This document shows, in pieces, positions 17,369 to 37,277 of a stretch of 64,000 bases of DNA. A program made the position numbers and the translations under genes. Positions within the stretch are counted from its first letter, which is position 1, and every line of letters begins with the position of its first letter. The notes below the pieces were generated by a model that ran no database searches, was not told the origin of the DNA, and saw nothing but the letters and a program-made list of their open reading frames with translations. This DNA comes from Calditrichia bacterium (GTDB lineage: Bacteria; Calditrichota; Calditrichia; RBG-13-44-9; J075): contig JANQQU010000062.1 in NCBI GenBank assembly GCA_028284905.1, positions 186,001 to 250,000 of the forward strand, given 5' to 3'.

Positions 17369-17889
17369 AAATCCTCCTGATATAACATATTAGTGAAAAT
17401 AGATAACGGATCGCATCGAGGTGAACCAAATTCAATTGATTGGTGTTGATGATCGCTCAATCATTAGGGTGATAATCTTTAATCATGCATCCCTTTACGA
17501 CGGATCATAGTAAATGTTTGCTTTCCGGGGACAAAATCAAAAAAAAGTGATCAGATGCTATATTGAGAATGCAACTGAGCAACTAGCTCAGCGATATTTC
17601 GGTACATCAACAACGACTTCTCAAAATAATCCGGCATTACCAGCCCCTTTTTTGTTTTCATCATTCATTTAGATATATTGGACAGATTTCGCAGAACTCG
17701 CTTATTATAGTGGAAACGACTTTCCGGATAAGTAAAAAATATTACAGTTTCTTGAATTCATAAGATTTTACCATGGTATAATCTCATATTTCTGGCTAAC
17801 TTGAACTTGCTTGAATCGCTGAAAAACATTGTTTATGCCGCTGTTTATTGATGATTTCATTGACCCGGGATAAACGGCAGGGGATCAAA
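17369..17889. other. Divergent intergenic region, 520 bases
   Basis: It separates the propeller-esterase gene (minus) from the binding-protein operon (plus). No open frame worth calling. It contains a dyad CTGAGC-AACTA-GCTCAG at 17575-17591 and a good TATAAT at 17777-17782, described separately. The AT-rich remainder shows no RNA gene that I recognise. The length suggests that both flanking units have complex control. Confidence 0.5.
17752..17782 (+). promoter_or_regulatory. Candidate sigma-70 type promoter of the sensing operon
   Basis: TTGAAT (17752-17757) and a consensus TATAAT (17777-17782) are separated by 19 bases, about 100 bases upstream of the binding-protein start. The -10 is perfect, the spacing a little long. 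A housekeeping promoter would keep the sensor genes expressed at a basal level while their target uses sigma-54. Confidence 0.45.
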
Positions 17890-19215
17890 TTGGATATTTC
17901 GTTTCGCAACAGTTGGAAATTTTACTTTTTTGGAGGCTTGCTGGCTTTTGTTATTCTTGGCCTGATCATCTACCTGTTTGATATTTACAGTATAAAATCC
18001 CAACAGCGTAATATCCAGAGAGTTTATTACGTAGACAACATCTCCGAAGCGCACCAGCACCTAATTGATCTCTTCAACAAAAAGCATGAAGGTAAAATTG
18101 AAGTCGTTCCGGTTAACTTACCGTTCGACCAATTTAGCACCAATGAGCGCAAAGTTTTACTGGCACGGTCCCTTCGTGGGAGAAGTGAAGAAATAGACAT
18201 TTTTGCCGTAGATCTGATCTGGGTGCCGCGCTTTGCGCGCTGGGCAGAACCCCTGGACCTTTATTTCCCTTCTTCCCGGCGCAACAGCATCATTCCCGAG
18301 GCCCTGGAGTCCTGCTTTCACGAAGATCATTTTGTATCCGTGCCGATCTATATTGATATCGGCTTAATGTATTATCGCAAGGATTTGTTGCGCCACTTCA
18401 GCGATCCGGAAGCTTTCGAAAAACGCCTGGGAGAGTCGATTACCTGGGAAGAGTTGATTGAGCTTCGATTGGCGCATCCAGAATACCAGAATCCGTTTTA
18501 TATGTTTGCCGCGCAAAATTTTGAAGGGCTAGTTTGTAGCTATATAGAAACGTTGCATAGCATGAATGCTTCTATCTTTCAAGGAGACAGCGTTCAGTTG
18601 AACACACCTGCTTCCCGGAAAACGCTCCAGCTGCTTGTTGATATGGCCGGCTACCTAAACTTTGCCCCCAGAGACATTGTTCAGTTTGATGAAGTTGGCA
18701 TATATCTTTACGGCTTGCAAAATGATGCAGTGATGTTCCGCGGTTGGCCGGGACTGATACGGCAAGGTGTAACGGCAGATATTCCGGAAACGGTATATCA
18801 AAACTTACGGCGCGCCCCTTTACCGCATTTTGCCGGCACGAAGAAGAATGCAGTATATGGAGGTTGGAACCTGATGGTATCGAAATACTCAACAAAGAAA
18901 AGTGCTGCCATAAAATTTATACAGTTTGTTTTACAGCCGGAAAACCAGAAGCGAATGTTCGAACTAGGGGGATTTATTCCTGTAAATCAACAAGTTTACC
19001 GGGATGAAAGATTTATCAGTCAATATGCGGAGTTGCCGTTTTATCGTAAGCTGTTGGATAACGGCACCCATCGTCCTTACGTAGTTAACTACACCCAAAT
19101 TTCGGATATACTTTCATACTACATTCAAATGGCAATTAAGCAGGAAATTTCTGTCGAAAATGCTTTAGCCATGGCTACAAAGGACATAAACAACAGAAAG
19201 CCAATGGTGAAATAA
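17890..19215 (+). CDS. Membrane-anchored ABC-type solute-binding protein used as sensor
   Basis: About 441 residues. The fold is a family 1 extracellular solute-binding protein of the maltose/trehalose type: IDIFAVDLIWVPRFARW, PIYIDIGLMYYRKDLL, YGGWNLMVSKYS and the C-terminal QPENQKRMFELGGFIPVN all match. Instead of a cleaved or lipoprotein leader it has one uncleaved helix (FYFFGGLLAFVILGLIIYLF), so it stays fixed to the inner membrane facing the periplasm. I prefer the TTG at 17890, preceded by AGGGG; an ATG at 17851 in the same frame is possible but has no visible ribosome site. No ABC permease or ATPase is in the window. The next gene, three bases away, is a histidine kinase, so this protein most likely reports sugar binding to it. 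The ligand is inferred to be a cello-oligosaccharide from the downstream cellulases. Confidence 0.85.
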   Translation: MDISFRNSWKFYFFGGLLAFVILGLIIYLFDIYSIKSQQRNIQRVYYVDNISEAHQHLIDLFNKKHEGKIEVVPVNLPFDQFSTNERKVLLARSLRGRSEEIDIFAVDLIWVPRFARWAEPLDLYFPSSRRNSIIPEALESCFHEDHFVSVPIYIDIGLMYYRKDLLRHFSDPEAFEKRLGESITWEELIELRLAHPEYQNPFYMFAAQNFEGLVCSYIETLHSMNASIFQGDSVQLNTPASRKTLQLLVDMAGYLNFAPRDIVQFDEVGIYLYGLQNDAVMFRGWPGLIRQGVTADIPETVYQNLRRAPLPHFAGTKKNAVYGGWNLMVSKYSTKKSAAIKFIQFVLQPENQKRMFELGGFIPVNQQVYRDERFISQYAELPFYRKLLDNGTHRPYVVNYTQISDILSYYIQMAIKQEISVENALAMATKDINNRKPMVK

Positions 19216-19218
19216 ACT

Positions 19219-20712
19219 ATGAGTAACAACAACGATTCACAGCAGTATTTGAAAGAGAAATTCCGGAAATACAACTTCCAAATCAAACACCTTTTTCTCG
19301 TTTTCGGAATTATCTGTTTTTTTCTGATACTGGTTACATTCATCCAAAAACTCTCTCTACAAACCTTACTCCTCAACACACAACGATGGTATCAACAAGA
19401 CTTCGCAGAGCGCCTGGCGAATCTAACCGCGACTTCATTGGAATTATTGCTGGAAACCGCCTCCCAGGAAGAACTTAATAACGACCTCGCTGCCCAGGAA
19501 ATGATTCAGGCTTTCAACATTCTATTTAGCCAGCAAGTGCTACAACACCAGGTTGATGAGGTGGCAATTATCGTCACCCACAAAGGCAATAGTTATATCA
19601 TTGATAATGGGATGGTGCTATATCAGTATTTCTTTCGGGACGGCAATAATCTGCCACCGAACAGTGATGATTATCAGAGGGTATTGGCGCTGTACGACTC
19701 TATCCATCCCTATATGCAGGCAGCTGAGGAAGTTCAGAGTATTCCCACAGACAACAACAGCTTTCGGGTGTTTGTGCCTTTTGTGCCGAAAGGGGAGTTC
19801 CTCGGTGCGGTTTACGTTCGCAATACGCCGGACTTTAGCTTCATCACCGAAGAAGTTTTAGCCAATTACAATGAAACGGCATTATTCTTTTCTGCATTAA
19901 TCCTCTTTGGGCTTCTTGCCGTATTTTATGTCTCATCTTATTTGATGAACGAAAGGGATGCTGCCAGGGAATCTCTGTTTACCCAGGAACAGGATGCCTT
20001 GAAAAAGTCAATAGATCAGCAAAAAGAACACTTGTTTACCAAGCGGATTTATCACACCCATCATAAGGCTGAAAAAGTGATGGGCTTTATCAAGGAAGAT
20101 TTAAGAAATCTTTCTGCAGAGAACATTGAGGAGAGCAAGTATCGGGTAACTAAATATGCCAACTTTATGTCCCGTGTTATCTACGACATGAAGTGGTATG
20201 AGCCACCGTTGCATGCTATCCGGAATACAATTTTTCAAACAGATTTAAACGCCCTGATTCGCTTTATTGTGAAAAACATCTTTTTACGAATTGCTTCCGA
20301 TGCAGAATCACTTAAATTTAAGCTTGATTTAGATGAAACATTTCCCCCGGTTAGAGTGAATGAATTTATCATTTGGGAAATCCTTGAGCCGCTAATTCAA
20401 AACAGCATCGACCACGGCGGTGAGGCAGACAACACCATTCTGATAAAAACATATCAAGATTCCGATGGTGAGAAGCGTTATATTACAATCAGCGACACCG
20501 GGAAAGGTGTTCCGACGAATTTACTGGAAAAGAATGAAGATGGGGTGCAATTACTTTTCCTGGAGAATATCTCCACAAAAAATATTGGCAGGAACAGCGG
20601 ATACGGTTGCTATTTAGCATATGAGATATCGAAACGCTGCGGCTGGGAAATTAAGGCCGAGAATCTTGAGCAAGGTGGTTGCCGCACCACACTGACGTTA
20701 AAAACACTGTAA
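19219..20712 (+). CDS. Sensor histidine kinase of the binding-protein system
   Basis: 497 residues: a membrane helix near 16-42, a periplasmic part (about 45-215, with segments resembling a sensor domain of the Cache/PAS-like type, not firmly assigned) and a second helix near 221-242. A coiled region and a kinase core follow. The HATPase is recognisable from EPLIQNSIDHGG (N-box Asn395), SDTGKGVP (Asp426) and NSGYGCYLAYEI (G2). The phospho-acceptor region KRIYHTHHKAEK (His279, 281, 282) lacks the usual H-E-x-x-x-P context. The gene lies between the solute-binding protein and the sigma-54 activator with short gaps (3 and 18 bases), so the three form one operon. It presumably phosphorylates Asp62 of the next protein. 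Confidence 0.85.
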   Translation: MSNNNDSQQYLKEKFRKYNFQIKHLFLVFGIICFFLILVTFIQKLSLQTLLLNTQRWYQQDFAERLANLTATSLELLLETASQEELNNDLAAQEMIQAFNILFSQQVLQHQVDEVAIIVTHKGNSYIIDNGMVLYQYFFRDGNNLPPNSDDYQRVLALYDSIHPYMQAAEEVQSIPTDNNSFRVFVPFVPKGEFLGAVYVRNTPDFSFITEEVLANYNETALFFSALILFGLLAVFYVSSYLMNERDAARESLFTQEQDALKKSIDQQKEHLFTKRIYHTHHKAEKVMGFIKEDLRNLSAENIEESKYRVTKYANFMSRVIYDMKWYEPPLHAIRNTIFQTDLNALIRFIVKNIFLRIASDAESLKFKLDLDETFPPVRVNEFIIWEILEPLIQNSIDHGGEADNTILIKTYQDSDGEKRYITISDTGKGVPTNLLEKNEDGVQLLFLENISTKNIGRNSGYGCYLAYEISKRCGWEIKAENLEQGGCRTTLTLKTL

Positions 20713-20730: not shown

Positions 20731-22176
20731 ATGCTTAAAGGCAGAAGAATCAATGTATTACTGATTGAAGACGAAGCGTATGATGTCCGTCGCATCAAAA
20801 ATACCATACGCCTATCAGAGACAGATATTTATATCCATGATGTTGTCTCTAATGGACAAAGTGCAGTGGAACTCGTCGCAGACAGCAACAATCAATATGA
20901 TGTTGTCATTATGGATTATCAAATTGCCGGCAGCTTATCGGGGGAGGACTTGATTCAGCGTTTAAAAAAGCTGGATCCGCTCCTGCAAATTATCGTTATC
21001 ACAAAAATGACCCTGAATATTACTGATTTTGATTTCGCCAACCGCTTACTTACTGCCGGGGCTATGTGGTACTGCACCAAATATCCCGGAGACATCGAAG
21101 ATTATATCTATCAACCAACGGATTTTATACTCAGTATTTACAATGCCTATGAGAAGCGCTCCCTGGAAAAAGCCCGGCGCCGTTCGGACAAGAAACTGGA
21201 TCGTAACATTGAAGAGATTGTCTTTAGCAAAAGAATCGTTGGAGAGTCCGCAACAATCGGATATTTGCGCCAGCAGATCAAAAATTGTGCGGAAACAGAA
21301 ACAACGGTATTAGTCCGCGGAGATTCTGGCACCGGAAAAGAACTGGTAGCTGCAAACATCCATTACAACAGTGCCCGGCGCTATGAAAAGTTTGTCCCGA
21401 TCAACTGCGGCAGCCTGCCTGCGGATTTGATTGAGAGTGAATTGTTTGGTTTCGAGAAAGGCGCTTTTACCGGTGCCGCCACTCAAAAACCCGGTCTATT
21501 CGAAGTGGCGAACAAAGGAACGATCTTCCTTGATGAAGTCGCAGAATTACCGCTTTCTTCCCAGGTGAAATTACTGAGAGTGTTACAGGAAGGGGAGTTA
21601 GATAAAATCGGCCGGACCCAACAGGTAAAGGTCGATGTTCGGGTCATTGCTGCAACAAATAAAAGTCTGGAAGATGCCGTGCGGGATGGCAGATTTCGAA
21701 AGGACCTTTATTATCGCTTAAATGTTGTCTTTATCCAATTGCCATCATTAAAAGAACGCAAAACCGACATTCCCCTGCTCATCAAGCACTTCCTGGAAAA
21801 ATATAGTAATGAGATGAGTTTGCCGGCACCAGAAGTTGCCGAAGCGGGTATGTCTCTGCTCGTTAATCATGGATGGCCCGGCAATGTTCGTGAATTGCAA
21901 AATGTTGTACAACGCCTGATATTTGCCCGGGAAAAAGAGATTGATGCGCCGCTCGTAAAAAACTCACTGGGAATGTTGCTGGACTCTCCGACAGGCAATA
22001 TATACGCTTGGGATCCGGATAATATTTTACCACTGCGGGAGATTGAGCGTCAATTTCGGGAGCAGTATTTTCAGTTTGTGCGGCAACATACCCAATCAGA
22101 TGCAGAAGCAGCCCGCTTGCTCGGACTGGCACCGTCCAACTATCATCGCATGTGTAAAGAATTAGGGCTGAAATAA
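20731..22176 (+). CDS. NtrC-family sigma-54-dependent response regulator
   Basis: 481 residues with three parts. The receiver (about 4-125) has the acidic pocket IEDE and phospho-acceptor Asp62 in VIMDYQ. The AAA+ sigma-54 activator domain (about 165-400) has Walker A GDSGTGKE (197-204), an intact GAFTGA loop (244-249), which contacts sigma-54, and Walker B GTIFLDEV. A Fis-type helix-turn-helix ends the chain (DAEAARLLGLAPSNYHRM). Every residue group needed for an active bacterial enhancer-binding protein is present. It is the last gene of the sensing operon. A near-consensus -24/-12 promoter and a dyad lie just downstream in front of two cellulase genes, which makes those genes its likely targets. 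Confidence 0.93.
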   Translation: MLKGRRINVLLIEDEAYDVRRIKNTIRLSETDIYIHDVVSNGQSAVELVADSNNQYDVVIMDYQIAGSLSGEDLIQRLKKLDPLLQIIVITKMTLNITDFDFANRLLTAGAMWYCTKYPGDIEDYIYQPTDFILSIYNAYEKRSLEKARRRSDKKLDRNIEEIVFSKRIVGESATIGYLRQQIKNCAETETTVLVRGDSGTGKELVAANIHYNSARRYEKFVPINCGSLPADLIESELFGFEKGAFTGAATQKPGLFEVANKGTIFLDEVAELPLSSQVKLLRVLQEGELDKIGRTQQVKVDVRVIAATNKSLEDAVRDGRFRKDLYYRLNVVFIQLPSLKERKTDIPLLIKHFLEKYSNEMSLPAPEVAEAGMSLLVNHGWPGNVRELQNVVQRLIFAREKEIDAPLVKNSLGMLLDSPTGNIYAWDPDNILPLREIERQFREQYFQFVRQHTQSDAEAARLLGLAPSNYHRMCKELGLK

Positions 22177-22228
22177 CGCAGGCAGGTGAGTACAGCATCG
22201 CTTGATCACAATTCTATGATTATTATTC

Positions 22229-22248
22229 TAATAACTCTGCTGTTATTA
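22229..22248. promoter_or_regulatory. Dyad, candidate enhancer for the sigma-54 activator
   Basis: TAATAAC-TCTGCT-GTTATTA is a perfect 7-6-7 inverted repeat about 205 bases before the -24 element, a usual distance for NtrC-family enhancer sites. It is AT-rich and has no T-run after it, so a terminator is less likely. The right arm continues into GTTATTAATAT, an 11-mer also found at 9081-9091. Confidence 0.45.
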
Positions 22249-22453
22249 ATATCATAACAATTCGCCCTGCCTGATCAGCTCCGCTTAGCCATCATCCGAA
22301 GTTTTGATCAAACCCAGCTAGTCCCGCTCCTCCGAAACCAACACCCTATGTTCACTTTTATCAATCACTTAAAGCGCCTCAGCAATATACAGTTTTATGA
22401 TTAGTATTGAAGTAAATACGCATTTCGGACTTTTTCATCCGAATGAAGAATCA

Positions 22454-22469
22454 TGGTATATTTATTGCC
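22454..22469 (+). promoter_or_regulatory. Sigma-54 (-24/-12) promoter of the cellulase operon
   Basis: TGGTATATTTATTGCC carries GG and GC exactly ten bases apart and agrees with the degenerate RpoN consensus TGGYRYRN4TTGCW at every position except the last base. It lies about 104 bases upstream of the GH5 start, with a predicted transcription start near 22481. In a scan by eye of the other intergenic regions I found no second match of this quality. It fits the sigma-54 activator encoded immediately upstream. Confidence 0.75.
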
Positions 22470-22572
22470 TTAGTCCTTTATTGGTTATATCGGGATGATA
22501 TAACTATCAGTCTGAATTAATCATAAGCAATATTCTTCCAGATAATCCCTCTATGAAAGGCTGGGTAATTGT

Positions 22573-24549
22573 ATGCAGAAATTTGGGTTACTAATTGTGG
22601 CTTTATTTGCATTGATAATTTCATCCACGAATGTTTCCGCCGGCTTCCTGAAAGCAGAAGGAACAGAGATTGTGGATTCCACTGGTACCCCAATATTGCT
22701 ACGGGGTTATGGGCTTGGTGGCTGGCTGGTACCCGAGGGCTACATGCTCAATTTTCCCGGATTTGGATCACCCACGGCCATTCGAAATACAATAGAAAGC
22801 CTGATAGGGGAGGAGAATACCGCTCAATTCTACGCCGCATATGAAGCGAACTACGTTAACCGAAACGATGTTGACATGATCGCCCAATGGGGTTTCAACT
22901 CTATTCGCATGCCTTTTCATTACAAGCTGCTCTATGATGTGGATACCGGTACTTATCTCGAAAGCGGTTTCGCTGTCATTGATTCTATGGTAAGCTGGTG
23001 TAAAGCAAACGACCTATACCTGATTCTGGATATGCATTGCGCTCCTGGCGGGCAAAATACCGGCCCGATCAGTGATAGCGACGGCATCGAAGCCCGTTTA
23101 TGGACGGAACCAGCCAACCAGGTGTTGGCAATTGACGTTTGGAAGCATATTGCCCAACGCTACGTCAATGAAAAAACAATCGGTGGATACGACCTCATCA
23201 ATGAACCGGTGCTGCCGAACAATTACAGCCTCACAGATTTCCGCAACTTTTATGTTGAGTTAACCGATACAATTCGCGCCTACGACACGAATCATATCGT
23301 TTTTATCGAGGGAAACTGGTATGCCACCAACTTCGACGGGCTAACCCCGCCCTGGGATCCTAACATGGTTTATAGCTTCCACAAATATTGGAGTGAAACG
23401 GACCTGGGATCGATACAAGGCTACCTGGCAATGCGCGCTCAACACAACGTACCGCTTTGGATGGGAGAATCCGGAGAGAATTCCAATGGCTGGTATTATG
23501 AAGCTGTTCAACTCTTTGAAGAGAACAATGTCGGCTGGTGCTGGTGGGCGCACAAAAAGTTTGACACCATCAACAGCCCATACTCTGCATACAAACCCGA
23601 TGGCTACGAATTGTTGCTGGACTACTGGAACGGGCAGGCGCCACAACCGACTGTTTCTTTTGCGGTTAATGCCATGATGGAAATGGCGGAAGCTTTAAAA
23701 CTTGAAAACTGTCTCTACCGCCCGGATATCATCAAGGCGTTATCAGATCCGACTTTTGGAACAACCCCCGAACCTTATCTGAACCACACAATACCGGGAA
23801 ATATTTATGCTGTGAACTATGATGTCGGTCATCAAGGGATTGCTTATTTTGACTCGGAGTATAAACACACCGGCAATGGCAGTTGGAACAACGGCTGGGT
23901 GTATCGCAATGATGGCGTAGACATTGAAGCTTCGCAGGATAATCAAAGCAACGGCTATAACGTCGGTTGGATTAATTCCGGAGAAAGGATCCACTACACC
24001 GTAGATATTCAAAGCAGTGGATTATATGAAATTCGTTTTCGTACGGCCAGTCTTAACGGCGGCGGCAAACTAAACCTTCTTGTTGATGATGTGATTGTCA
24101 GAACTGGTATCGACGTACCGAGTACTTCCGGCTGGCAAAACTGGACAACTGTCACCGTGTACGATATTCCTCTGCCGGCTGGCATACATAAATTCTCAAT
24201 TCTGGCAGCACCGGGCGGCTTCAACTTCAGCAATATGACATTCTTTCTCAGTGCAGTTGGTATCGATGAAGAAACCGGACCGATTCAAAAATTCGAACTC
24301 AGTCAGAATTACCCCAATCCATTTAATCCGTCCACGACGATTCAGTATCAAATTCCCAAGCGCAGTGATGTCGTTTTAACCGTTCACAATGTCTTAGGAG
24401 AGGTCGTTGCAGAGTTGGTTAATACGCCGCAGAATCCCGGTAGCTATCAGGTCGATTGGGATGCTAGCGATTATGCCAGTGGCGTTTACTATTACCGAAT
24501 TACCGCTGGTGATTTTAGTGAAACGAAAAAGATGTTGTTAATCCAATAA
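22573..24549 (+). CDS. Secreted GH5 endoglucanase with CBM6-like module and T9SS tail
   Basis: 658 residues. Signal peptide 1-23, then a GH5 catalytic domain (about 25-370) with acid/base Glu211 in DLINEP and nucleophile Glu299 in WMGESGENS. A CBM6-like beta-sandwich follows (about 395-565; GNGSWNNGWVYRNDGVDIE, AGIHKFSILAAPGG). The C terminus is a T9SS sorting domain (about 575-658) opening with FELSQNYPNPFNPSTTIQY. The enzyme should be exported through the periplasm to the cell surface or medium and cut beta-1,4-glucans; cellulose is the best guess, mannan or xyloglucan are alternatives. It is first in a two-gene unit with GH9 (14-base gap) behind a sigma-54 promoter. Confidence 0.9.
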   Translation: MQKFGLLIVALFALIISSTNVSAGFLKAEGTEIVDSTGTPILLRGYGLGGWLVPEGYMLNFPGFGSPTAIRNTIESLIGEENTAQFYAAYEANYVNRNDVDMIAQWGFNSIRMPFHYKLLYDVDTGTYLESGFAVIDSMVSWCKANDLYLILDMHCAPGGQNTGPISDSDGIEARLWTEPANQVLAIDVWKHIAQRYVNEKTIGGYDLINEPVLPNNYSLTDFRNFYVELTDTIRAYDTNHIVFIEGNWYATNFDGLTPPWDPNMVYSFHKYWSETDLGSIQGYLAMRAQHNVPLWMGESGENSNGWYYEAVQLFEENNVGWCWWAHKKFDTINSPYSAYKPDGYELLLDYWNGQAPQPTVSFAVNAMMEMAEALKLENCLYRPDIIKALSDPTFGTTPEPYLNHTIPGNIYAVNYDVGHQGIAYFDSEYKHTGNGSWNNGWVYRNDGVDIEASQDNQSNGYNVGWINSGERIHYTVDIQSSGLYEIRFRTASLNGGGKLNLLVDDVIVRTGIDVPSTSGWQNWTTVTVYDIPLPAGIHKFSILAAPGGFNFSNMTFFLSAVGIDEETGPIQKFELSQNYPNPFNPSTTIQYQIPKRSDVVLTVHNVLGEVVAELVNTPQNPGSYQVDWDASDYASGVYYYRITAGDFSETKKMLLIQ

Positions 24550-24563
24550 GAAGGAATCCACCA

Positions 24564-26573
24564 ATGACTAAATGGCTGTTTTTACTCGCTTTTGTCTGCA
24601 TCAGCTCATCCTCGGTGCTTGCCCAGGTATTTATCAACCAGGGCGGTTACTTGCCTGGCGCCCCCAAATATGTTTTCAGCAACCAGTCTGCAGACAGCTT
24701 TTATGTCCGGGATGCGCAATCCCAGGAAATTCGCTTTCGAGGCGGCGTTTCCCTTTTTCTTGCCAATGATCCGTCGACAGATATGAGCATATACCGGGGC
24801 GATTTCAGCGATTTTCAGTCTGCCGGGGAATATTATATAGAGTTGCTAAATGCTGGCAATTCATTTCCTTTTGCCATTTCCGACACGGTTAGTCAGTCCG
24901 TCTACGAAAAAGCATTGAAAGCATTTTACTTCCATCGCGTTGGCGTCGATTTGCTCGGAGAGTATGCAGCGCCATATTTTCGTTCCCGCGGACATATTGC
25001 GGATGGATTTTTTCATCCCAGCACCGGGAAAAGCGGCTTCCATCTTTCCCGAGGGGGGTGGTATGATGCTGGCGATTATGGAAAATATATCGTTAATGCC
25101 AGCATCACTACTGGCACAATGTTGATGGCCTATGAAGAATTCCCCACACTTTTCGGAGAAGACGATCTGAAAATTCCCGAAAATGGCAATGGGGTGCCGG
25201 ACATTCTCGATGAAATTCGTTTTGAGCTGGAATGGTTTTTAACAATGCAGGATGCCAGCAGTGGAGGCGTTCACCATAAATTAACCCGGGAAACCTTCAC
25301 CGGTTTTGTCATGCCGGCCAATGACAGTGGGACCCGATATATCTACGAAATTTCGTCGACAGCCACAGCAGATTTTGCCGCAGTCTTGGCGCGTGCCTAT
25401 CGTGTCTTTTTGCCGTTTGACGCGACGTTTGCCCAAACTTGCCTGAACGCCGCAGAAGCAGCATGGGATTTTCTGGAAAACAATCCCAACATCGTGCCGC
25501 CAGGAGGGTTTAGTAATCCTTCCGGCACCAACACCGGTCAATATGGCGACGGCAATGACTCGGATGAACGTCTTTGGGCTGCGGCAGAACTCTACGTCGC
25601 TACCGGGGAAACCGACTATCATTCTTATTTCCTCTCCAACTACAGCAATGGTGGACTGATTACCGGAGAAATGGCCTGGCCATATGTTAAACCATTGGCT
25701 TTGCTTGCTTATTTGCGCGGCGATCAAAACGGCATCAGCCAAGCCGCAAAAGCATTGATTCGAAATTCTCTGGATAATTATTGTCAATCACTCATCGCCA
25801 CTATTCAAAATCGCGGATTCCATGTTGCTATGTCTCCGGGAGAATATAACTGGGGATGTAATTCCCGGGTGCTGAATCGGGCAATATTGTTGATTTTCGG
25901 CTATGAGGAAATGAACAATCCGGTCTATGTGGAAGCGGCATTTGAACAGCTTAGCTATACACTTGGCGCCAATGCGCACAACATTTCATTTGTAACCGGA
26001 GTAGGGGAGCAATACCCGATGCGCCCACATCATCGTATTTCCGAAGCAGATGGCATCGTAGAACCGATTCCCGGCTTTATCGCCGGTGGTCCGGATCAGT
26101 TTTTGAGTGACCCGGTATTGCAATCGACTTTCTCTTCCGCAACCCCTCCGGCGCTCTGTTATATTGATGACCTTGGCAGTTATGCATCCAATGAGTTTGC
26201 AATTAACTGGAATGCGCCGCTGGTATTTGTCGCCGGATATTTTTCCAAAGACTCGCCACTTACCAACATAAGCCCAACGCCGGGTACACTACCTGAACGC
26301 AGTGGCCTCTTTCAAAATTATCCGAATCCTTTTAATGGACAAACAACGATTGAATTTCAATTGGCGAAATCAAGTTCTGTTTCCATCGAAATTTATGACA
26401 GCCTGGGGAAATCAATCTATAGTGAATCATTGGGGACACTTTCCCCCGGAGTACATCAATATCAGTGGGATAGTCGCAACAGTCAGAGCGCGGAAATTAG
26501 CTCGGGCGTATACTATTATACCCTCCGTGGATCGGAATTTTCCTATTACCGGAAGATGGTTTATATTAGGTAG
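24564..26573 (+). CDS. Secreted GH9 cellulase with T9SS tail
   Basis: 669 residues. After a signal peptide (about 1-21) comes the N-terminal Ig-like domain of CelD-type GH9 enzymes (VFINQGGYLPGAPKY). The (alpha/alpha)6 catalytic domain has GGWYDAGDYGKY with the two catalytic-base aspartates Asp168 and Asp171, GVPDILDEIRFELEW, LGANAHNISFVTG and the acid Glu544 in SYASNEFAINWNAP. All catalytic residues are present. Residues about 580-669 are a T9SS sorting domain (LFQNYPNPFNGQTTIEF). GH9 enzymes are nearly always endo- or processive beta-1,4-glucanases, which points to cellulose or related glucans as the target of the locus. It is co-transcribed with the GH5 gene upstream. Confidence 0.94.
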   Translation: MTKWLFLLAFVCISSSSVLAQVFINQGGYLPGAPKYVFSNQSADSFYVRDAQSQEIRFRGGVSLFLANDPSTDMSIYRGDFSDFQSAGEYYIELLNAGNSFPFAISDTVSQSVYEKALKAFYFHRVGVDLLGEYAAPYFRSRGHIADGFFHPSTGKSGFHLSRGGWYDAGDYGKYIVNASITTGTMLMAYEEFPTLFGEDDLKIPENGNGVPDILDEIRFELEWFLTMQDASSGGVHHKLTRETFTGFVMPANDSGTRYIYEISSTATADFAAVLARAYRVFLPFDATFAQTCLNAAEAAWDFLENNPNIVPPGGFSNPSGTNTGQYGDGNDSDERLWAAAELYVATGETDYHSYFLSNYSNGGLITGEMAWPYVKPLALLAYLRGDQNGISQAAKALIRNSLDNYCQSLIATIQNRGFHVAMSPGEYNWGCNSRVLNRAILLIFGYEEMNNPVYVEAAFEQLSYTLGANAHNISFVTGVGEQYPMRPHHRISEADGIVEPIPGFIAGGPDQFLSDPVLQSTFSSATPPALCYIDDLGSYASNEFAINWNAPLVFVAGYFSKDSPLTNISPTPGTLPERSGLFQNYPNPFNGQTTIEFQLAKSSSVSIEIYDSLGKSIYSESLGTLSPGVHQYQWDSRNSQSAEISSGVYYYTLRGSEFSYYRKMVYIR

Positions 26574-26636: not shown

Positions 26637-28568
26637 ATGATCTCACGGAAACGGAAAACTTTATTTACATTCATCGCAATACTTCTTCCATTTCTGATAC
26701 TTGGCTTAGTGGAAATCATCCTCCGCATAGCCGGCGCTTATGCACCGACGCCCTTATTTCTGGAGAAAGGGCTGAATATGCAGATCAACACCCAGGTTGC
26801 TACCCGCTATCTCAACCCACAAGAGATCACCATTCCTACGCTTTATCCGGAGACATTCCGTAAAGAAAAACCCTCGAATACTTTTCGCGTTTTTTGCCTG
26901 GGCGGATCGACAACCGCCGGTTTTCCCTTCGATGCCCAGGTCCCTTTTCCCCAACAACTACGCTTCCTTCTGACAAACGCATATCCGGAACGTCAATTCG
27001 AGATAATCAACCTGGGTATTTCAGCAATGAACAGCTTTACAGTGCTGGATCTGCTACCGGAGGTTTTACAACAGTCTCCGGATCTTTTGATAATTTACAT
27101 GGGGCACAATGAATTTTACGGGATTTATGGCGGTGCTTCAGCAATATCAATTGGTCGCCAGGGTTGGTGGATACGGACTTATTTACATCTGAACAAATTC
27201 CACCTGGTACAAATGTTACGAAGCGGGTTGACCGGCTCGAAAAGTAATTCCGCAAAACCAAGCGCCGAAAAGACACTGATGGAGCAGGTTATTGGAGATC
27301 GCTCAGTTGCTTATCGCTCTGATCAATACAACCTGACAATGAACAACTTTCGGGAGAACCTTTCCGAAATTCTCAGTTTGGCAAAATCCACAGAAGTACC
27401 GGTATTACTGAGCAATCTTGTCGCCAACGAAAAAGATCTGGCACCTTTCGGCAGTCCCCCAAAAATCACCGATGATCTCCGCGACAAACGCCAAACAGCG
27501 GCGTCTCTTCTGAAGCAGGAAGACTTCAGCGGTGCTTATCAACTGTATGCCGACATCACCAGCAAGGATTCTACCCAGGCAAATAACTGGTACCGGCTTG
27601 GTAGACTTGCACTGAAAATGCAGGACAGTGTTGCGGCAAGTAAGCATTTCAGGTTAGCAAAAGACTATGATCTTGTTCGCTTCCGGGCCAGTGAAGACGC
27701 AAACCGGATTATCGCTGAGGCAGCTGAAACTTCAGCTCACCTTGTTGATATGTCAAAGCGTTTCCGGGAGGAATCTCGTCTGGGAATTCCCGGTGACGAT
27801 CTGATATGCGACCATTTACATCCGGACCCTAACGGGTATTATCTAATGGCGTTAACATTCTTTGAAGAGATACTGAAGAATGACATACTTCCCGCAATTG
27901 GTAATGGCTTTCAGCCGCCCCCGGCCCCGGCGAACATCACTGATCTGGACTGGGATATGGGATTGTTAAAAATACACAAGCTAAAGCATCGCTGGCCTTT
28001 TCGGGAGAAGACCGTGGATTATAAGGACTATCGTCCCCGTGGCAATCCATATGCAACAAAAGCAGCTTATGATTATATTTTCAAGCATCAGGACTGGGTA
28101 AAAGCCCAGTATCAAATGGCCCGGTTCTACAGCAGTCGGAAAAATCATTCAATGGCGCGCAGGCATTATCAGGCAGTTAATTTTTTCTTTCCGGATAAAC
28201 ATGACGCGCTTATGCAGATCGCCAAATCCTACCAGGCAGATGGTGATCTTGCATCAGCCAGAGCAAGCTACAAAAAAGCACTAATCGCCGCACCGGGACA
28301 CGGACGCTATCTGGCAGACCTGGCGATGCTTTGCTGGCAGGACAAGCTTGCATCAGAAGCAATCAACTACATGGAAAATGCGCTAAACGCCACATTCGGC
28401 CTGACGAGCGATGAAAAGAACAATCTTCGTTTTTATTTGGCCGGGTTTTATTTCAACGAAGGAAATACTGACAAAGCAAGGGAAATGCTATCTCAATTAT
28501 TGGCGGCACAACCGAATCATCGCGGAGCGAAGACATTACTATCTCAGATAAATGCGCAATTGCAGTAA
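26637..28568 (+). CDS. SGNH-type hydrolase with TPR repeats
   Basis: 643 residues. One N-terminal helix (about 8-32, LFTFIAILLPFLILGLVEII) anchors or exports it. The SGNH hydrolase domain (about 80-410) has Ser91 in LGGSTTAG, Gly in NLGISAMNS, Asn in GHNEFYG and the Asp392/His395 pair in CDHLHPDPNG, so its catalytic set is complete. A TPR-like insertion (about 285-350) and C-terminal TPR repeats (about 480-640) flank it. Such enzymes deacylate or acyl-transfer on lipids or glycans. It follows the cellulases in the same direction and may remove ester groups from plant glycans, or modify the cell's own envelope; the sequence does not decide. Confidence 0.8.
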   Translation: MISRKRKTLFTFIAILLPFLILGLVEIILRIAGAYAPTPLFLEKGLNMQINTQVATRYLNPQEITIPTLYPETFRKEKPSNTFRVFCLGGSTTAGFPFDAQVPFPQQLRFLLTNAYPERQFEIINLGISAMNSFTVLDLLPEVLQQSPDLLIIYMGHNEFYGIYGGASAISIGRQGWWIRTYLHLNKFHLVQMLRSGLTGSKSNSAKPSAEKTLMEQVIGDRSVAYRSDQYNLTMNNFRENLSEILSLAKSTEVPVLLSNLVANEKDLAPFGSPPKITDDLRDKRQTAASLLKQEDFSGAYQLYADITSKDSTQANNWYRLGRLALKMQDSVAASKHFRLAKDYDLVRFRASEDANRIIAEAAETSAHLVDMSKRFREESRLGIPGDDLICDHLHPDPNGYYLMALTFFEEILKNDILPAIGNGFQPPPAPANITDLDWDMGLLKIHKLKHRWPFREKTVDYKDYRPRGNPYATKAAYDYIFKHQDWVKAQYQMARFYSSRKNHSMARRHYQAVNFFFPDKHDALMQIAKSYQADGDLASARASYKKALIAAPGHGRYLADLAMLCWQDKLASEAINYMENALNATFGLTSDEKNNLRFYLAGFYFNEGNTDKAREMLSQLLAAQPNHRGAKTLLSQINAQLQ

Positions 28569-28720
28569 TTGGAATAAAAACAAGCACATTGGAACGGAAA
28601 CAGAGCATTATCAAAATAATAATTTTTCATTTATTACTTTAATAAGCCAACGGCACCCCTTTCTTTTTACCACACCGGCAAACCTAATAAATACAACACT
28701 TTAAAAATTTTGTTTTTTTT

Positions 28721-28736
28721 TGGCACACTCTCTGTA
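28721..28736 (+). promoter_or_regulatory. Weak candidate sigma-54 promoter of the symporter gene
   Basis: TGGCACACTCTCTGTA has a perfect -24 half (TGGCAC). In the -12 half, CTGT stands where TTGC is expected, with correct spacing. It lies 38 bases before the GTG start, a sensible distance. If functional it would put the transporter under the same activator as the cellulases; the -12 mismatch makes this uncertain. Confidence 0.3.
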
Positions 28737-28773: not shown

Positions 28774-30390
28774 GTGATTGCCCTTTCATTTCCGGACATA
28801 CTCGTAATCCTATTCTACTTTATTGTAGTTGTAGGCATTGCTACATACTTCGGATACCGAAAGAGTGAAACCAGCCGCGGCTTTTTTCTTGCCGATAATC
28901 AACTCGGTTGGTTTGTTATCGGTGCATCTCTTTTCGCAGCGAATATATCTACGGAACACTTTCTTGGATTGGCAGGTTCTGGCGCCAATCACGGTTTGGT
29001 TGTTGGTAATTTCGAATGGCTGGCGATTTTCTTTATTATGGCACTGGGCTGGATTCTTGCCCCGATTTTTCTTCGCTCGAGAGTATTTACCGTCCCGGAA
29101 TTTTTTGGCAAACGCTTTAACAATACCACCCGCTTGTATCTGGCTGGCATTTCAATCCTTGCATACATCATCACCAAAAGCAGCATTTCTCTTTTTGCCG
29201 GCGGCATATTAATGGAACACATGCTTGGTTGGGACATGTATACTTCAGCGATTCTGATGATGATTATTACCGGAATTTATACAATCGTTGGGGGAATGAG
29301 CGCTGTCGTTTACACATCTGTTGTTCAGGCATTTTTCCTCATCGGCGGTGCGATTTTGATGACCTATTTCGGCTTCTTGGAGGTCGGTGGATGGGGTGCA
29401 CTAAAAGCGCAGCTGCCGGCAGATTATTTCTCCATATTCAAACCGATGAGTGACCCGGATTTTCCCTGGACGGGCATCCTGTTTGGCGCTCCAATTCTTG
29501 GCATATGGTATTGGTGCACGGATCAGTATATCGTTCAACGAGTGCTTTGCGCCAGGGACGAAAAATCCGCGCGTTATGGCGCTGTCTTTACCAGTGTGTT
29601 AAAGTTGTTGCCGCTATTCATCCTCGTTGTTCCCGGATTAATTGCGGCGGTGCTTTACCCGGGTGTGCGGGGAGATGATGCCTATCCAATGCTCCTTGCC
29701 GGCAATTTACTCCCGACCGGGATCAAGGGATTGGTTGTTGCCGGTGTCCTCGCTGCCCTGATGTCTTCTCTCGCGACCTGTTTCCACAGCACTGCAACGC
29801 TATTTACAATGGATTTCTACCGGCACTTTTATCCCGATGCACCGGAGATTCGCCTGGTTCTCATTGGCAGACTCTCAACGATGGTCATGGTGATCATTGG
29901 CCTGGTTTGGATATCCTTATCGAAATATATCAATGCGCATCTATACATATTTTTACAAAGCATCCAGGCGTTCATTAGTCCGCCAATAACAGCTGTTTTT
30001 CTCCTCGGCCTTTTTTGGAAGCGCCTGAATGGCAACGGTGCTATTATTGCCCTGGCCGGCGGTGGCGTTATTAGTGCATTTCGCGTAGGACTGATGTTTG
30101 TACCAGCGAAAACGGTTGCGCAATTTCCGACTTTACAATGGCTGGCGGATTTAAACTATCTGCATTTTGCCATTTACCTGTTTTTGATTTCATCTGCGTT
30201 GTTGATCGCTGGTAGCTTTTTATCTCAGGACGACCGCAAAGATGTTTCAGCTTATACAATTTCCGGCATCACGCTGGCACGGGGCAGAGCGGTATTAGCA
30301 GGTTTTTTATCTGCTTCTCGCCGGCAGTTGTTTTTTTTCTCTTTAATGATAATTGCAGCAATAATCAGCCTTTGGCGAAATATTTTTTAG
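28774..30390 (+). CDS. Sodium/solute symporter (SSS family), SglT-like
   Basis: 538 residues with about 13 to 14 membrane helices in the inner membrane. TIVGGMSAVVYTSVVQAFFL and the early YFGYRKSE...GFFLADNQLGW region are typical of the sodium/glucose cotransporter branch of SSS proteins, and WYWCTDQYIVQRVLCAR is characteristic of sugar-type members. It starts with GTG, preceded by GAGGAG. It should import a sugar or related compound with Na+. Placed after secreted cellulases and before a carbohydrate-binding surface protein, glucose or cellobiose is a reasonable guess, but SSS members also carry sialic acid, inositol and proline. Confidence 0.88.
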   Translation: MIALSFPDILVILFYFIVVVGIATYFGYRKSETSRGFFLADNQLGWFVIGASLFAANISTEHFLGLAGSGANHGLVVGNFEWLAIFFIMALGWILAPIFLRSRVFTVPEFFGKRFNNTTRLYLAGISILAYIITKSSISLFAGGILMEHMLGWDMYTSAILMMIITGIYTIVGGMSAVVYTSVVQAFFLIGGAILMTYFGFLEVGGWGALKAQLPADYFSIFKPMSDPDFPWTGILFGAPILGIWYWCTDQYIVQRVLCARDEKSARYGAVFTSVLKLLPLFILVVPGLIAAVLYPGVRGDDAYPMLLAGNLLPTGIKGLVVAGVLAALMSSLATCFHSTATLFTMDFYRHFYPDAPEIRLVLIGRLSTMVMVIIGLVWISLSKYINAHLYIFLQSIQAFISPPITAVFLLGLFWKRLNGNGAIIALAGGGVISAFRVGLMFVPAKTVAQFPTLQWLADLNYLHFAIYLFLISSALLIAGSFLSQDDRKDVSAYTISGITLARGRAVLAGFLSASRRQLFFFSLMIIAAIISLWRNIF

Positions 30391-30423: not shown

Positions 30424-31893
30424 ATGAAATACGGGTACAGTTTTCTAATTATTACAGCGCTTTTCTTTTGCCTGACCAGTTGCCAGAACAGTAACGACAG
30501 CCAGGAAGAAAAAATTGTGATTGCCGATATTGGCGAACGTACGGTTGATTGGCAGCAGCTTTGGCTTAGCTATCATCTGGAGCCAAAGTGGGGGAGAGGG
30601 CTGACAACTGAAGAGTCCTTCAACAATCAACTGGAATACCTTGTTGAGCAAAAATTGTTTGCCCAGGCTGCAGTCAGTGAAGGCGCCCTGGAAGATCCGC
30701 GCATTGCCGGTCAGGTTGCATTTATTCAGGAAAAAGAAGCGATCAAAGCGCTATACCGGAAACATGTAGAATCCAAAGTTGAAATTCAGGAAGCAGCTTA
30801 CGAGCAAGCTTATCATAACAGCAAGACCAAAGTTCAGTTCCAGTACATCAAAACAACAGACTCTTTAAAAGCTGCGGATTACCTGGTCGCTTTTGGCACG
30901 AAAGCGTTTGAGCAGATTATTGTTTCTCCAGCAGATGAAAAGGCAGTTTCTCCAATGTTTACTTTTGGTGATATGGCCGAGCCCCTGGAAGCAGTGGTTT
31001 TTCAAATGCAGCTGGATGAAATCCGTGGCCCGATCAAGGTGGATGATCAATTTATGGTCGTGAAGCTCATCAATGGGGAACGCGATGTTTTTCGCTCCAA
31101 AATGGAATTGGCGGAGCAAAAGAGCAAGCTGAAGAAAGTGCTCTTTGAACGCCGGGCTAAAGTAATATCCGACCGTTATGTCTCCCAGATTTTGCAAGGC
31201 AAAAAAGTAACCATTCACCGCGAAGCCTTCATTCAGCTTGCCAAGACATTTAATCAGGTCGTTCAGCAAAAGCAATCGGATAACTCCTTACCACTTTACC
31301 TGGACAATAATGAGATCAAGGAAACCCGTTCAACATTGAAAGATTTCCAGGATGATCTACTGATCACTTTTACCGGTGGCAGCTTGACCATTCGTGAGTT
31401 CCTCGAGGATTTATTCAATATGCCCACCGGCTTGCGTCCACAAGTCAATATGGCACCGGCACTCAAAAAAGCGCTTTATCAGGCGGTTAGAAATCACTAT
31501 CTGGCAGAAGCAGCAGCTCGGGAAGGATTAGGCGAAACCGCAGAAGTACAATCTGCAGTTGAAAGCCAAACGGACGCGATACTGGCGCGTTTCCGGATGC
31601 AGCAAATGCGGAACAACTTAACGGTCAGCGAAACAGAGATTGAAGAATTTCAGGGCAGCGAAGCTTATGCCAGGTTAAACAATCTTTCCAAAGGGAAACT
31701 GGACAATCGCGCGGTTAAGGATGTTTTACTGGATTTCAAATTCAAAAATGCCAGAATTGAACAGTCCGACAGTTTACGCAATGTTTACACCGTTAGTATC
31801 CAGCAAGAAAATCTTAGCAAGAAAATCGACAAACCGGATGAGCTTATCGCACATCAACCGGTGAGAATGTATTATCGGGAAAATTTCCATTAA
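30424..31893 (+). CDS. Parvulin/SurA-like folding lipoprotein
   Basis: 489 residues. A lipoprotein leader ends at LTSC with Cys20 as the lipidated residue. The following helical part (EEKIVIADIGERTVDWQQLW, then NQLEYLVEQKLFAQAA) matches the chaperone region of SurA/PrsA-type peptidyl-prolyl isomerases. A parvulin-like segment spans about 120-225 but is divergent, and a second helical chaperone-like stretch follows (TITFTGGSLTIREFLED-like start near 315). It probably helps exported proteins fold at the periplasmic membrane, with the large surface proteins next door as obvious clients. Isomerase activity itself is doubtful because the parvulin part is poorly conserved. Confidence 0.72.
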   Translation: MKYGYSFLIITALFFCLTSCQNSNDSQEEKIVIADIGERTVDWQQLWLSYHLEPKWGRGLTTEESFNNQLEYLVEQKLFAQAAVSEGALEDPRIAGQVAFIQEKEAIKALYRKHVESKVEIQEAAYEQAYHNSKTKVQFQYIKTTDSLKAADYLVAFGTKAFEQIIVSPADEKAVSPMFTFGDMAEPLEAVVFQMQLDEIRGPIKVDDQFMVVKLINGERDVFRSKMELAEQKSKLKKVLFERRAKVISDRYVSQILQGKKVTIHREAFIQLAKTFNQVVQQKQSDNSLPLYLDNNEIKETRSTLKDFQDDLLITFTGGSLTIREFLEDLFNMPTGLRPQVNMAPALKKALYQAVRNHYLAEAAAREGLGETAEVQSAVESQTDAILARFRMQQMRNNLTVSETEIEEFQGSEAYARLNNLSKGKLDNRAVKDVLLDFKFKNARIEQSDSLRNVYTVSIQQENLSKKIDKPDELIAHQPVRMYYRENFH

Positions 31894-31956
31894 GAGAGAA
31901 GCGTCGAAAAATGTTATCACCTAAAATCACTAGTTCATTTAATATCCATCTAACGC

Positions 31957-31963
31957 AGGAGGT
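31957..31963 (+). promoter_or_regulatory. Very strong ribosome binding site
   Basis: AGGAGGT, a full anti-Shine-Dalgarno match, eight bases before the ATG at 31972. It agrees with the biased codon use of that gene and indicates high translation. Confidence 0.75.
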
Positions 31964-31971
31964 CTAGCATT

Positions 31972-34461
31972 ATGAAGAAATGCTGGCTATTGTTTTGTGC
32001 GATTCTGATGATCAGCGTAACTGCGCAAGCGCAGTCCTTTATGTTTGATCCATTGGATGAGCACCCCGATTCAAACTATATCAGTACGTATGCATCTGTT
32101 TCTGATACAAGCTGGGTTGCACTTACTGTTGAAGAAACCATCGTTAACCAAGGCGCTGCCGCACTCGGGTATGAGTGGCAGGTGCAAAGAGCCGAGAGTT
32201 GGGGTGGTTTTACCAAATACGAAATCTGGCACCCGGATTCATTCTCTGTATGGGATTTTTCCGCATTCGAGAATCTCTCTCTCTGGTATTATAATGAAAC
32301 ACCATCCTCTGACCCGGGCCGTATTCATTTACGCCTGCAGCTTTTTGATGTAAGTGATGCTCCGGTCAACACTTATGATGCAGGTAATACCGAGCTTTGG
32401 TATTCTTTTGAGTATGTGCTTGATGACGCAGCTGGCTGGACAGAAATCGTTTTACCGTTGGAAGACGTTGGTTCTGCAGCGACATCCGGTAGCAACGGTT
32501 TCTGGAGAACAGGTTGGTCTGGCGTTGATGGTAACAACACCCTGAATCTGAATGCCATTAAAGGTATCGGTATGGAAATTTCTATCGATGCGCCGCAGGA
32601 TTTTTCAGTACACACCGGGAAAATCATCTTCGACGCACTTGGTTTCTCCGGCGCTCGCGCATTGCCGGTTATTTTCTTTAATGGTAATGTTATTCCTGGC
32701 AACATCAACAATCACTTTGCCTGGAATGGTAGTACGGAAATTGTTCCGGATGCAGGTGCAACCCCTGGTACCGGCGCTTTAAAATGGACCCAGGGTGCTG
32801 GTCAGCCGTGGACTGGTTTTGTTTTCGAGTTTGATCCGCAGTTCCTGACTTTCCGCTGGGGTATTGACTCTTTGAAATTCAAGATTAAAGCCCCGACTGG
32901 CACCAGCACACTGCGCGCTCAGTTCGCTGATGCAGCTGGTAATATCGTCAAGAAAACGATAGACGAGCCAGGTGGTGGCTATAACGATCAGTGGTGGGAT
33001 GTCGAAATTCCGCTGCGCGACATTGTAGATTTTGAAGCTGGCAGCAGCTTTGATACTTCTGCAGTTGTTAAGTTCGAATTTATGGCTGAAGGCACCGGTA
33101 ATGGCCATGTGATTTATTTCGACGACATGTGGACCGGTACTCCGGAAATCGACATTATTCCTCCGGCAGCACCGAATCCCGTATTCGCTGTTGCGGACAA
33201 TCTGTCCAACCTGGTTACCTGGTCGGATACTCCGAACGAAAGCGACGAGACTTATAATGTTTACTACTCTTTTTCCCCGATTACAGACATCAATGCACCG
33301 GGTATTGAAGTCGTAGAAAAAGGTATTGCCGTTCCGGAAAACACCGGCTCCCTGGCACACCTGCTTTTCTCCCCGCTGACTGCTCAGCAGCTGGACATTT
33401 ATTATGCGGTTACTTGTGTTGATGCAGCTGGTAACGAGTCTGAGCCGGCATTGATGCCGACGGTTGTTAGTAACACTGCTCGCGCTATTGCGACAATTCA
33501 ATTAGACCCGACTGTTTCTTCCAGCTTTGCCGCAGATGGTAATCTCGGTGAGTGGGCTGGCGTTCAGCCGATCTCTATCCGTCCTTCTGAAGGCGCACAC
33601 ATCGTACCGAACACCGTAGTTAGTGGTGATAATGATCTGAGCATGGACCTTTATCTTGCCACTGATGACAATTATCTCTATTTTGCTTTTGAGATGGATG
33701 ATGATGTTGTTGATACAACTGCTGTAAACAGCTGGGAAAAAGACAGTCCGGATCTCTTCCTCGGTCTGTACGACTGGCATGGTCCGCAACACCAGGCATA
33801 TCAGAGTGGTGCAACCCCGGATTTTCAGTTCCGCATGCTTCCCGGTAAAGTGGTTATCGCCAGTCAGGGTGATGCACTCTTCCTGAACGCTTCCGGCGAC
33901 GATTATCACTGGCAGCTGACCCCGCCGTTTGGTTACATGGCTGAAGGTCGTATTTCCTTTACTGAGCTTTCCGCAGTTGGTGGTGGCGATATTTTCCTTC
34001 CGAGAAACGGTTATCGTATTCCTTTCGACGTCGCAATTAACGACGCGGATGCCGGTAACGGTACTCGTGAAGGTATCATGACCTGGTCTCCCTACAACAA
34101 CGACAACTCCTGGGCATCTCCCTCTAACTGGATGTATACCTGGGTTGGTGATCAAATGATGACCAGCATCGATGAAGATTTGACCGCCGGTGTTCCGGTT
34201 GAATTTGAACTGAAGCAAAACTATCCGAACCCCTTCAACCCGTCGACAACAATCGAATATGCGATTGCCAAGCCGGGCCTGGTAACACTGGATGTTTATA
34301 ATACATTAGGCCAAAAAGTAGCTATTCTGGTTAACCAGACTCAGTCTGCCGGCCGTTACACTGTAAACTTCAACATGCCGAATTTACCGACCGGTATTTA
34401 TTTCTATCGCCTGCAAACCAACCAGTTTGTTGACGTACAGAAAATGATCTTGTTGAAGTAA
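31972..34461 (+). CDS. Secreted multi-module carbohydrate-binding protein with T9SS tail
   Basis: 829 residues. Signal peptide 1-20 (ending TAQAQS). Two galactose-binding-like beta-sandwiches of CBM11-like type follow (about 22-220 and 230-390), then an FN3 domain (about 395-500) and a CBM9/DOMON-like domain (about 505-735; FAADGNLGEWAGVQPI, YLATDDNYLYFAFEMDDDVV). A T9SS sorting domain ends the chain (about 742-829; FELKQNYPNPFNPSTTIEY). There is no catalytic domain, so it looks like a surface glycan-capture protein. Gly codons lean to GGT and Leu to CTG more than in neighbouring genes, and the ribosome site is perfect, so it is likely abundant. A 13-bp hairpin separates it from the TonB receptor gene. 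It could fill the capture role that SusD plays elsewhere; this is inference. Confidence 0.8.
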   Translation: MKKCWLLFCAILMISVTAQAQSFMFDPLDEHPDSNYISTYASVSDTSWVALTVEETIVNQGAAALGYEWQVQRAESWGGFTKYEIWHPDSFSVWDFSAFENLSLWYYNETPSSDPGRIHLRLQLFDVSDAPVNTYDAGNTELWYSFEYVLDDAAGWTEIVLPLEDVGSAATSGSNGFWRTGWSGVDGNNTLNLNAIKGIGMEISIDAPQDFSVHTGKIIFDALGFSGARALPVIFFNGNVIPGNINNHFAWNGSTEIVPDAGATPGTGALKWTQGAGQPWTGFVFEFDPQFLTFRWGIDSLKFKIKAPTGTSTLRAQFADAAGNIVKKTIDEPGGGYNDQWWDVEIPLRDIVDFEAGSSFDTSAVVKFEFMAEGTGNGHVIYFDDMWTGTPEIDIIPPAAPNPVFAVADNLSNLVTWSDTPNESDETYNVYYSFSPITDINAPGIEVVEKGIAVPENTGSLAHLLFSPLTAQQLDIYYAVTCVDAAGNESEPALMPTVVSNTARAIATIQLDPTVSSSFAADGNLGEWAGVQPISIRPSEGAHIVPNTVVSGDNDLSMDLYLATDDNYLYFAFEMDDDVVDTTAVNSWEKDSPDLFLGLYDWHGPQHQAYQSGATPDFQFRMLPGKVVIASQGDALFLNASGDDYHWQLTPPFGYMAEGRISFTELSAVGGGDIFLPRNGYRIPFDVAINDADAGNGTREGIMTWSPYNNDNSWASPSNWMYTWVGDQMMTSIDEDLTAGVPVEFELKQNYPNPFNPSTTIEYAIAKPGLVTLDVYNTLGQKVAILVNQTQSAGRYTVNFNMPNLPTGIYFYRLQTNQFVDVQKMILLK

Positions 34462-34468
34462 GTTTTTT

Positions 34469-34499
34469 TCGCATCGGGAGGGTCAACCTCCCGATGCGA
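34469..34499. terminator. Strong intercistronic hairpin
   Basis: TCGCATCGGGAGG pairs perfectly with CCTCCCGATGCGA around a five-base loop, starting eight bases after the stop of the surface-protein gene. Only ATTATTAATT follows, not a proper U-run; a T7 run precedes the stem. It may partly terminate or stabilise the upstream message so that the abundant protein is made in excess over the TonB receptor. Confidence 0.7.
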
Positions 34500-34543
34500 T
34501 TATTAATTCATCAACTATCGTATTACTAAAGGCAGAAGATAAG

Positions 34544-37249: not shown

Positions 37250-37277
37250 GTAATCCAATTTATTCCGGAGGTTAGGA

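Follow-up and report, generated by a model that had tools for sequence, protein, structure and literature searches.

The locus described here lies in a 64-kb stretch of a Calditrichia bacterium genome ("the window," meaning the whole of the DNA analysed) and comprises a run of regulatory genes, two predicted enhancers, two sigma-54-type promoter elements (P1 and P2) and the genes behind them (Table 1).

Table 1. Genes and predicted regulatory elements of the locus, in order along the window.
Feature	Position	Strand	Basis and remarks
Sugar-binding protein (SBP_bac_1), predicted membrane-anchored; proposed sensor	17848..19215	+	Pfam, structure model; ATG at 17851 a possible start
Sensor histidine kinase	19219..20712	+	HATPase_c (Pfam); fold matches to solved kinases including ZraS
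NtrC-type sigma-54 activator	20731..22176	+	Pfam; receiver, AAA+ with GAFTGA, C-terminal DNA-binding end
Enhancer 1, predicted	22220-22257		Palindromes 22220-22234 and 22243-22257, starts 23 bases apart; between activator and P1
P1, predicted sigma-54 -24/-12 element TGGTATATTTATTGCC	22454-22469	+	Consensus and matrix score; 196 bases after enhancer 1
Secreted GH5 + CBM6 protein, type IX sorting tail	22573..24549	+	First gene behind P1
GH9 endoglucanase-type protein, sorting tail	24564..26573	+	P1 unit
GDSL-type protein with TPR repeats	26637..28568	+	Pfam; P1 unit
Enhancer 2, predicted	28608-28645		Palindromes 28608-28622 and 28631-28645, starts 23 bases apart; upstream of P2
P2, predicted sigma-54-type element TGGCACACTCTCTGTA	28721-28736	+	Score 12.4; 75 bases after enhancer 2
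SSF sodium:solute symporter	28774..30390	+	First gene behind P2
Rest of P2 unit, probable	30424..41551	+	Five genes (following rows)
489-aa protein	30424-31893	+	P2 unit; no Pfam match
CBM9 protein, sorting tail	from 31972	+	P2 unit
TonB/SusC-like receptor	from 34544	+	P2 unit
1070-aa protein	37278-40490	+	P2 unit; no Pfam match
PorV/PorQ family protein	from 40490	+	P2 unit

In its structure model, the sugar-binding protein has a single N-terminal helix (17-52), which looks like a membrane anchor, followed by a binding-protein fold whose best solved match is 1eu8; the nearest solved relatives of the model bind trehalose or maltose-type sugars, with binders of beta-oligoglucosides lower in the fold list. 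The kinase fold search returned ordinary kinases. Pfam matches in the activator cover a receiver, Sigma54_activat and AAA_lid_14; the GAFTGA loop is present, as the initial annotation had it, and Asp62 and FTGA are invariant across 14 aligned orthologs. The C-terminal end is also conserved and reads by eye as a Fis-type helix-turn-helix, with no Pfam match listed. A single RpoN gene was found in the genome (Sigma54_DBD match, 7.7e-58), and the 16 window proteins scanned (14972-49699) include no ABC permease.

This trio of genes recurs in other genomes. An activator ortholog (57–67% identity; two are fragments) occurs in 20 of 60 genomes, the present one included, and the next full-length relatives in the 60 fall to ~44% identity. 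The scan of named genomes found 230 stretches encoding a relative, and 80 loci were kept. Their labels are Calditrichota or Calditrichia, KSB1, Ignavibacteria, Melioribacteraceae, Neomarinimicrobiota, or just Bacteroidetes/bacterium, with single loci labelled Caldisericaceae and BMS3Bbin03. Across 86 loci examined, the gene next upstream of the activator encodes the kinase in 80 of the 83 with room for it, and the binding-protein gene comes before it in trio order in 73 of the 74 with room. One genome (G011; completeness 89%) has the activator, and RpoN was not found there. In another, two activator paralogs sit 34 kb apart on one contig (G003 contig C43; L032 and L033), each with its own promoter, one 5′ of an SSF gene and the other 5′ of a gene resembling GH16/GH5-type hydrolases.

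The genes behind the two promoter elements form two apparent units. The solved relatives of the GH5 protein include a putative beta-xylosidase, endoglucanases and exo-1,3-glucanases, and the GDSL-type gene is probably the last of the P1 unit, because enhancer 2 comes next. The genes of the P2 unit would be co-transcribed, since they share a strand and are separated by gaps of <90 bases. Among them, the TonB/SusC-like receptor scores below the RagA/SusC family cut-off, and no SusD match was found among the scanned proteins. Relatives of the 489-aa and 1070-aa proteins adjoin TonB-type and PorV-like genes beside another activator ortholog (L032).

A near-perfect sigma-54 promoter directly after a sigma-54 activator gene had initially been proposed at P1. 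The 16-mer is present at this position on the + strand, between the end of the NtrC-type activator (22176) and the secreted GH5-CBM6 gene; its GG-N10-GC spacing holds, and the one mismatch to the consensus is, as claimed, the last base (C). Standing alone, however, it is just a fair consensus match: at ≤1 mismatch, the degenerate consensus has 22 matches in the 64-kb window vs. 17.25 expected from shuffles. By itself the motif is weak evidence; its surroundings are strong. A first promoter matrix was set a priori, and the matrix used for scoring was built from 48 sites of related loci (48 of 52 rows; three odd or overlapping matches and the window site were dropped, such that window sites are excluded). 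P1 scores 15.3 on this matrix (maximum 22.1), a value reached in 2 of 2000 mononucleotide shuffles of 22258-22572, and only one position in the 64 kb, counting both strands, scores higher (30063, within the symporter gene). Its transcription start is predicted near 22480. That P1 was the only match of this quality in intergenic regions proved nearly right, but a second, better-placed site, P2, had been overlooked. P2 reads GG-N10-GT, i.e., the canonical C of the -12 GC is missing, and its score is reached by 3 of 2000 shuffles of its region; a close match to it, TGGCACACTCTCTGCA, lies upstream of an SSF gene in L003/L032.

The weak point of the promoter case is the unusual distance of P1 from enhancer 1—196 bases, vs. 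a usual 59–76. The gap is long but not out of kind, since a review places such enhancers ~100–150 bp upstream, acting by looping that is often helped by IHF (PMC7057263), and there are a few long-gap parallels at 158 (L081), 160 (L047) and 222 bases (L071). One might nonetheless suppose that P1 is a chance match, with the enhancer and P2 real and the GH5 unit transcribed from an unrecognised promoter or by read-through from the activator gene. The 196-base gap and the frequency of loose consensus matches in the window speak for this, yet we consider it unlikely: P1 is the sole candidate between enhancer 1 and the GH5 gene (the runner-up scores -5.9 on the same matrix) and is rarely equalled in shuffles, a + strand scan of 22150-22620 returned no sigma-70-like promoter, and L047 has TGGTATGTTTATTGCT, a 14/16 match, at a similar distance from its tandem and upstream of its carbohydrate unit. 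The pattern TTTG-N17-24-TANNTTTG is likewise absent from 22177-22572 and 28569-28773, and one very loose TTG[AC]/TANNNT match, at 22202, overlaps enhancer 1. The bases of P1 are known from one genome, the comparison set being without another genome of the genus. P1 has very probably been called correctly as a promoter and forms one piece of a larger conserved enhancer–promoter system.

The enhancers of this system were spotted by reading the DNA 3′ of activator orthologs, where a 15-base palindrome, TTATNANNNTNATAA, is repeated in tandem; these tandem palindromes look like the activator's enhancer. The earlier account of the locus was incomplete in this respect, having missed both enhancers as well as the second promoter. 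The exact tandem occurs twice in the 8.55-Mb genome, both times in the window (enhancers 1 and 2), and the reversed pattern 0 times. With ≤2 mismatches, a whole-genome search at the 23-base distance again returned just these two, and one at the 22-base distance returned no tandem. Across 87 related loci (1.34 Mb) there are 96 tandem pairs with ≤1 mismatch in all, vs. 0.2 in local shuffles; as some overlapping pairs are double-counted in this figure, merging leaves 85, with start spacings of 19–23 bases (22 in 47 and 23 in 21 of the 85). A pair is found in 55 of the 80 named loci, ≤700 bases 3′ of the activator in 36 of the 55, and no tandem occurs within the stretch examined in the other 25. 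The exact tandem is present in 14 of the 60 genomes, all of them within the 20 that have the activator ortholog (14/20 vs. 0/40), although the genomes are related and the 14 cannot be treated as independent cases.

In several Ignavibacteria-type loci (L074:6953-6989, L093:7024-7060, L127:6142-6178 and similar) a tandem also lies just 5′ of the sugar-binding-protein gene and -24/-12-like sites face the divergent gene, as if a divergent transporter gene were a further target in such loci.

The tandems are accompanied by promoter-like elements at a fixed distance. Specifically, when the sides of the 85 tandems are pooled, [TC]GG[CT][AG]N7TG has 48 matches at 60–79 bases and 7 at 40–59, vs. counts of 0–4 for any other bin of 20 bases up to 419. 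A -24/-12 element stands 50–79 bases away from 50 of the 82 non-window tandems, vs. 1–5 of 84 tandems (the window's two included) in each of seven equal-width control bins. The distances form two groups, 59–63 and 68–76, about one DNA turn apart. Genome-wide counts of the -24/-12 pattern against its reversal (384 vs. 175, 17 vs. 11, 118 vs. 21) were set aside, and nothing is drawn from them because the reversed pattern is not composition-matched and the three ratios disagree.

A gene was called behind 81 of the 85 tandems, and 65 of these promoter-first genes, nearly all from activator loci, were scanned for domains. The selection was made by hand: the 16 omitted (the second L060 row and L062, which are repeats, and L051, L054, L067, L075, L079, L083, L085-7051, L093-7024, L094, L099-4619, L100, L107, L121 and L129-5661) mostly score <10, except L094 (10.9) and L129 (10.2), and L066 (9.3) and L084 (8.1) were retained. 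The genes scanned include matches to SSF (32), GH2 (9), GH5 (4), GH3 (3), GH16 (3), GH9 (2), GH125 (1) and MFS (2) proteins, and 17 of the 65 carry type IX sorting tails.

Eleven further tandems, found by pattern alone in nine genomes, lie away from any activator and serve as an independent test. Every one has a TGGYA..TG element 52–77 bases off on one side (scoring 8.9–16.9 in 10 and just 3.7 in L154), with the -12 C retained at 3 of the 11. The next genes, domain-scanned for 10, are SSF (7), GH16 (2) and GH5 (1); L154, with masked bases, stood outside the domain scan, and the start of its next gene reads like an SSF protein. These tandems bear on whether the palindromes could instead be bound by another regulator, or be a terminator behind the activator gene, with the activator driving other promoters. 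Such an alternative draws on the symmetry and AT-richness of the palindromes and on a link to the activator that is one of co-occurrence, but it is very improbable, as the tandems are confined to activator-ortholog genomes, the 11 distant ones stand 5′ of promoters, and no terminator-like site was found in 22150-22620. From the co-occurrence, we infer that the activator is the protein that binds the palindromes. It is very improbable, too, that some sigma factor besides RpoN acts at the TGG...TG element. In favour of this, the base after the -12 TG is C in just 10 of the 52 position-locked elements (L050–L129; T in 21, A in 16, G in 5). Against it, the spacing between the GG and the -12 G is that of sigma-54 (a partly independent point only, the GG/TG spacing being in the search pattern), the regulator paired with these elements is an AAA+ protein carrying GAFTGA, and RpoN is present in all 14 tandem-bearing genomes.

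We hold it highly likely that P1 functions as a sigma-54 promoter within a dedicated three-component system made up of the sensor, the kinase and the regulator, together with the tandems and the P1 and P2 units. The points that weigh against this are the long P1 gap, the single genome of the genus available for P1, the -12 that often lacks C (in P2 as well), the 25 named loci with no tandem in the stretch examined, and G011, in which RpoN was not found at 89% completeness. Sequence comparison documents the conserved trio, the tandems, which in this genome are restricted to the locus and across genomes co-occur with the activator, the fixed spacing to -24/-12 elements, the carbohydrate targets and the one RpoN gene; the ligand (a beta-glucan oligosaccharide), the phosphorylation, the looping and the start sites we infer. 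In this model, the membrane-anchored sugar-binding protein (17848) would sense a glucan-derived sugar and signal to the histidine kinase (19219), which would phosphorylate the NtrC-type regulator (20731). The regulator would bind both tandems (22220-22257; 28608-28645) and open RpoN–polymerase complexes at P1 and P2 through looping of the DNA, P1 yielding GH5, GH9 and the GDSL-type gene, and P2 the symporter, the CBM9 protein, the TonB-type receptor and others. The RpoN control initially claimed for the hydrolase operon gains sequence-based support from the locus-only tandem enhancer, its co-occurrence with the activator, the position-locked -24/-12 elements and the distant targets, and from the negative + strand scan of 22150-22620 for sigma-70-like promoters. 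The further claim, that the hydrolases act on plant polymers, goes beyond the evidence: targets of the GH5/GH16 kinds would suit beta-glucans of any origin, and the GH5, GH9 and GH16 targets together suggest beta-glucan as the ligand.

Sigma-54 control is better known from nitrogen and motility genes, and polysaccharide loci in Bacteroidota are governed by hybrid two-component, SusR and ECF regulators. In the role of these, we probably have an undescribed sigma-54 signalling system—an anchored sugar sensor, a kinase, an NtrC-type activator and a tandem-palindrome enhancer code, with the -12 C largely given up—that extends across genomes labelled Calditrichota, KSB1, Ignavibacteria/Melioribacteraceae and Neomarinimicrobiota. 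Its components are of known kinds; the combination and range look new.

CuaDSR of Ruminiclostridium cellulolyticum, in the part of its description available, likewise groups solute-binding protein, kinase and response regulator genes, uses an extra binding protein for sensing and turns on genes for using a cellulose product, but its regulator is of the YesN/AraC type rather than an NtrC-type sigma-54 activator, its host is Gram-positive, and its targets are an ABC importer and a phosphorylase (PMC10384115). As in systems of that kind, the binding-protein, kinase and regulator genes here are adjacent, with no ABC permease among the window proteins scanned around them. The initial remark that RpoN control of plant-polymer hydrolases is rarely described must be set against the sugar-gene precedents of LevR at the B. 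subtilis levanase operon and CelR at the cel operon of B. thuringiensis, which share with the present locus a sigma-54 promoter, an upstream activating sequence and sugar-use genes and, in the levanase case, a polysaccharide hydrolase target, though those are PTS-type activators of Firmicutes, with PTS regulation domains and PTS transport and, in the available part of the source, no receiver, kinase or binding protein (PMC10864463). The present activator has no PRD or EIIA match in Pfam and carries a receiver domain instead. In published Clostridiales sigma-54 regulons, as far as the accessible text goes, receivers occur on ~10% of activators. NtrC-family two-component systems (ZraSR, AtoSC and the like) resemble ours in the ZraS-like kinase fold and in a regulator that joins a receiver, an AAA+ domain and a DNA-binding C-terminal end; unlike them, the present system scores well under the cut-offs of all the named NCBIfam equivalogs listed and adds a sugar-binding third partner and carbohydrate targets. 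LuxPQ–LuxO of Vibrio also joins a periplasmic sugar-binding-like protein, a kinase and a sigma-54 response regulator, but it serves quorum sensing via a phosphorelay and controls small RNAs. No description of the present combination was found in the open-licence literature searched; the main text of a sigma-54 survey (PMC12316311) holds no word beginning Calditrich or Ignavibacter, and the accessible part of the Melioribacter roseus genome paper describes cellulose use and does not mention this regulator.

If this reading is true, it would supply a rule (tandem TTATNANNNTNATAA, then TGGYAY-N6-TG ~50–80 bases on) by which polysaccharide regulons could be predicted in several groups that are mostly uncultured, and a sugar-to-promoter pathway that is testable in cultured relatives; the loci include one from Stygiobacter electus (L114) and one from a MAG labelled Melioribacter roseus (L092). 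It would also link sigma-54 with secreted glycan degradation in bacteria that use TonB-type uptake together with type IX sorting, for which other regulators are the textbook case.

Two minor features of the window remain. A perfect 8-base inverted repeat, GTTATATC-GGGAT-GATATAAC (22484-22504), lies just past the expected P1 start and could be an operator; a hairpin in the 5′ leader of the P1 transcript was dropped as a candidate, RNA folding being no better than in shuffles (z -0.17). Finally, the 16-mer TGGCGAATCGATTACA occurs twice, at 49759-49774 and 50092-50107, 333 bases apart; both copies fall in one ORF (49709-51301), a hint of a repeat within it.
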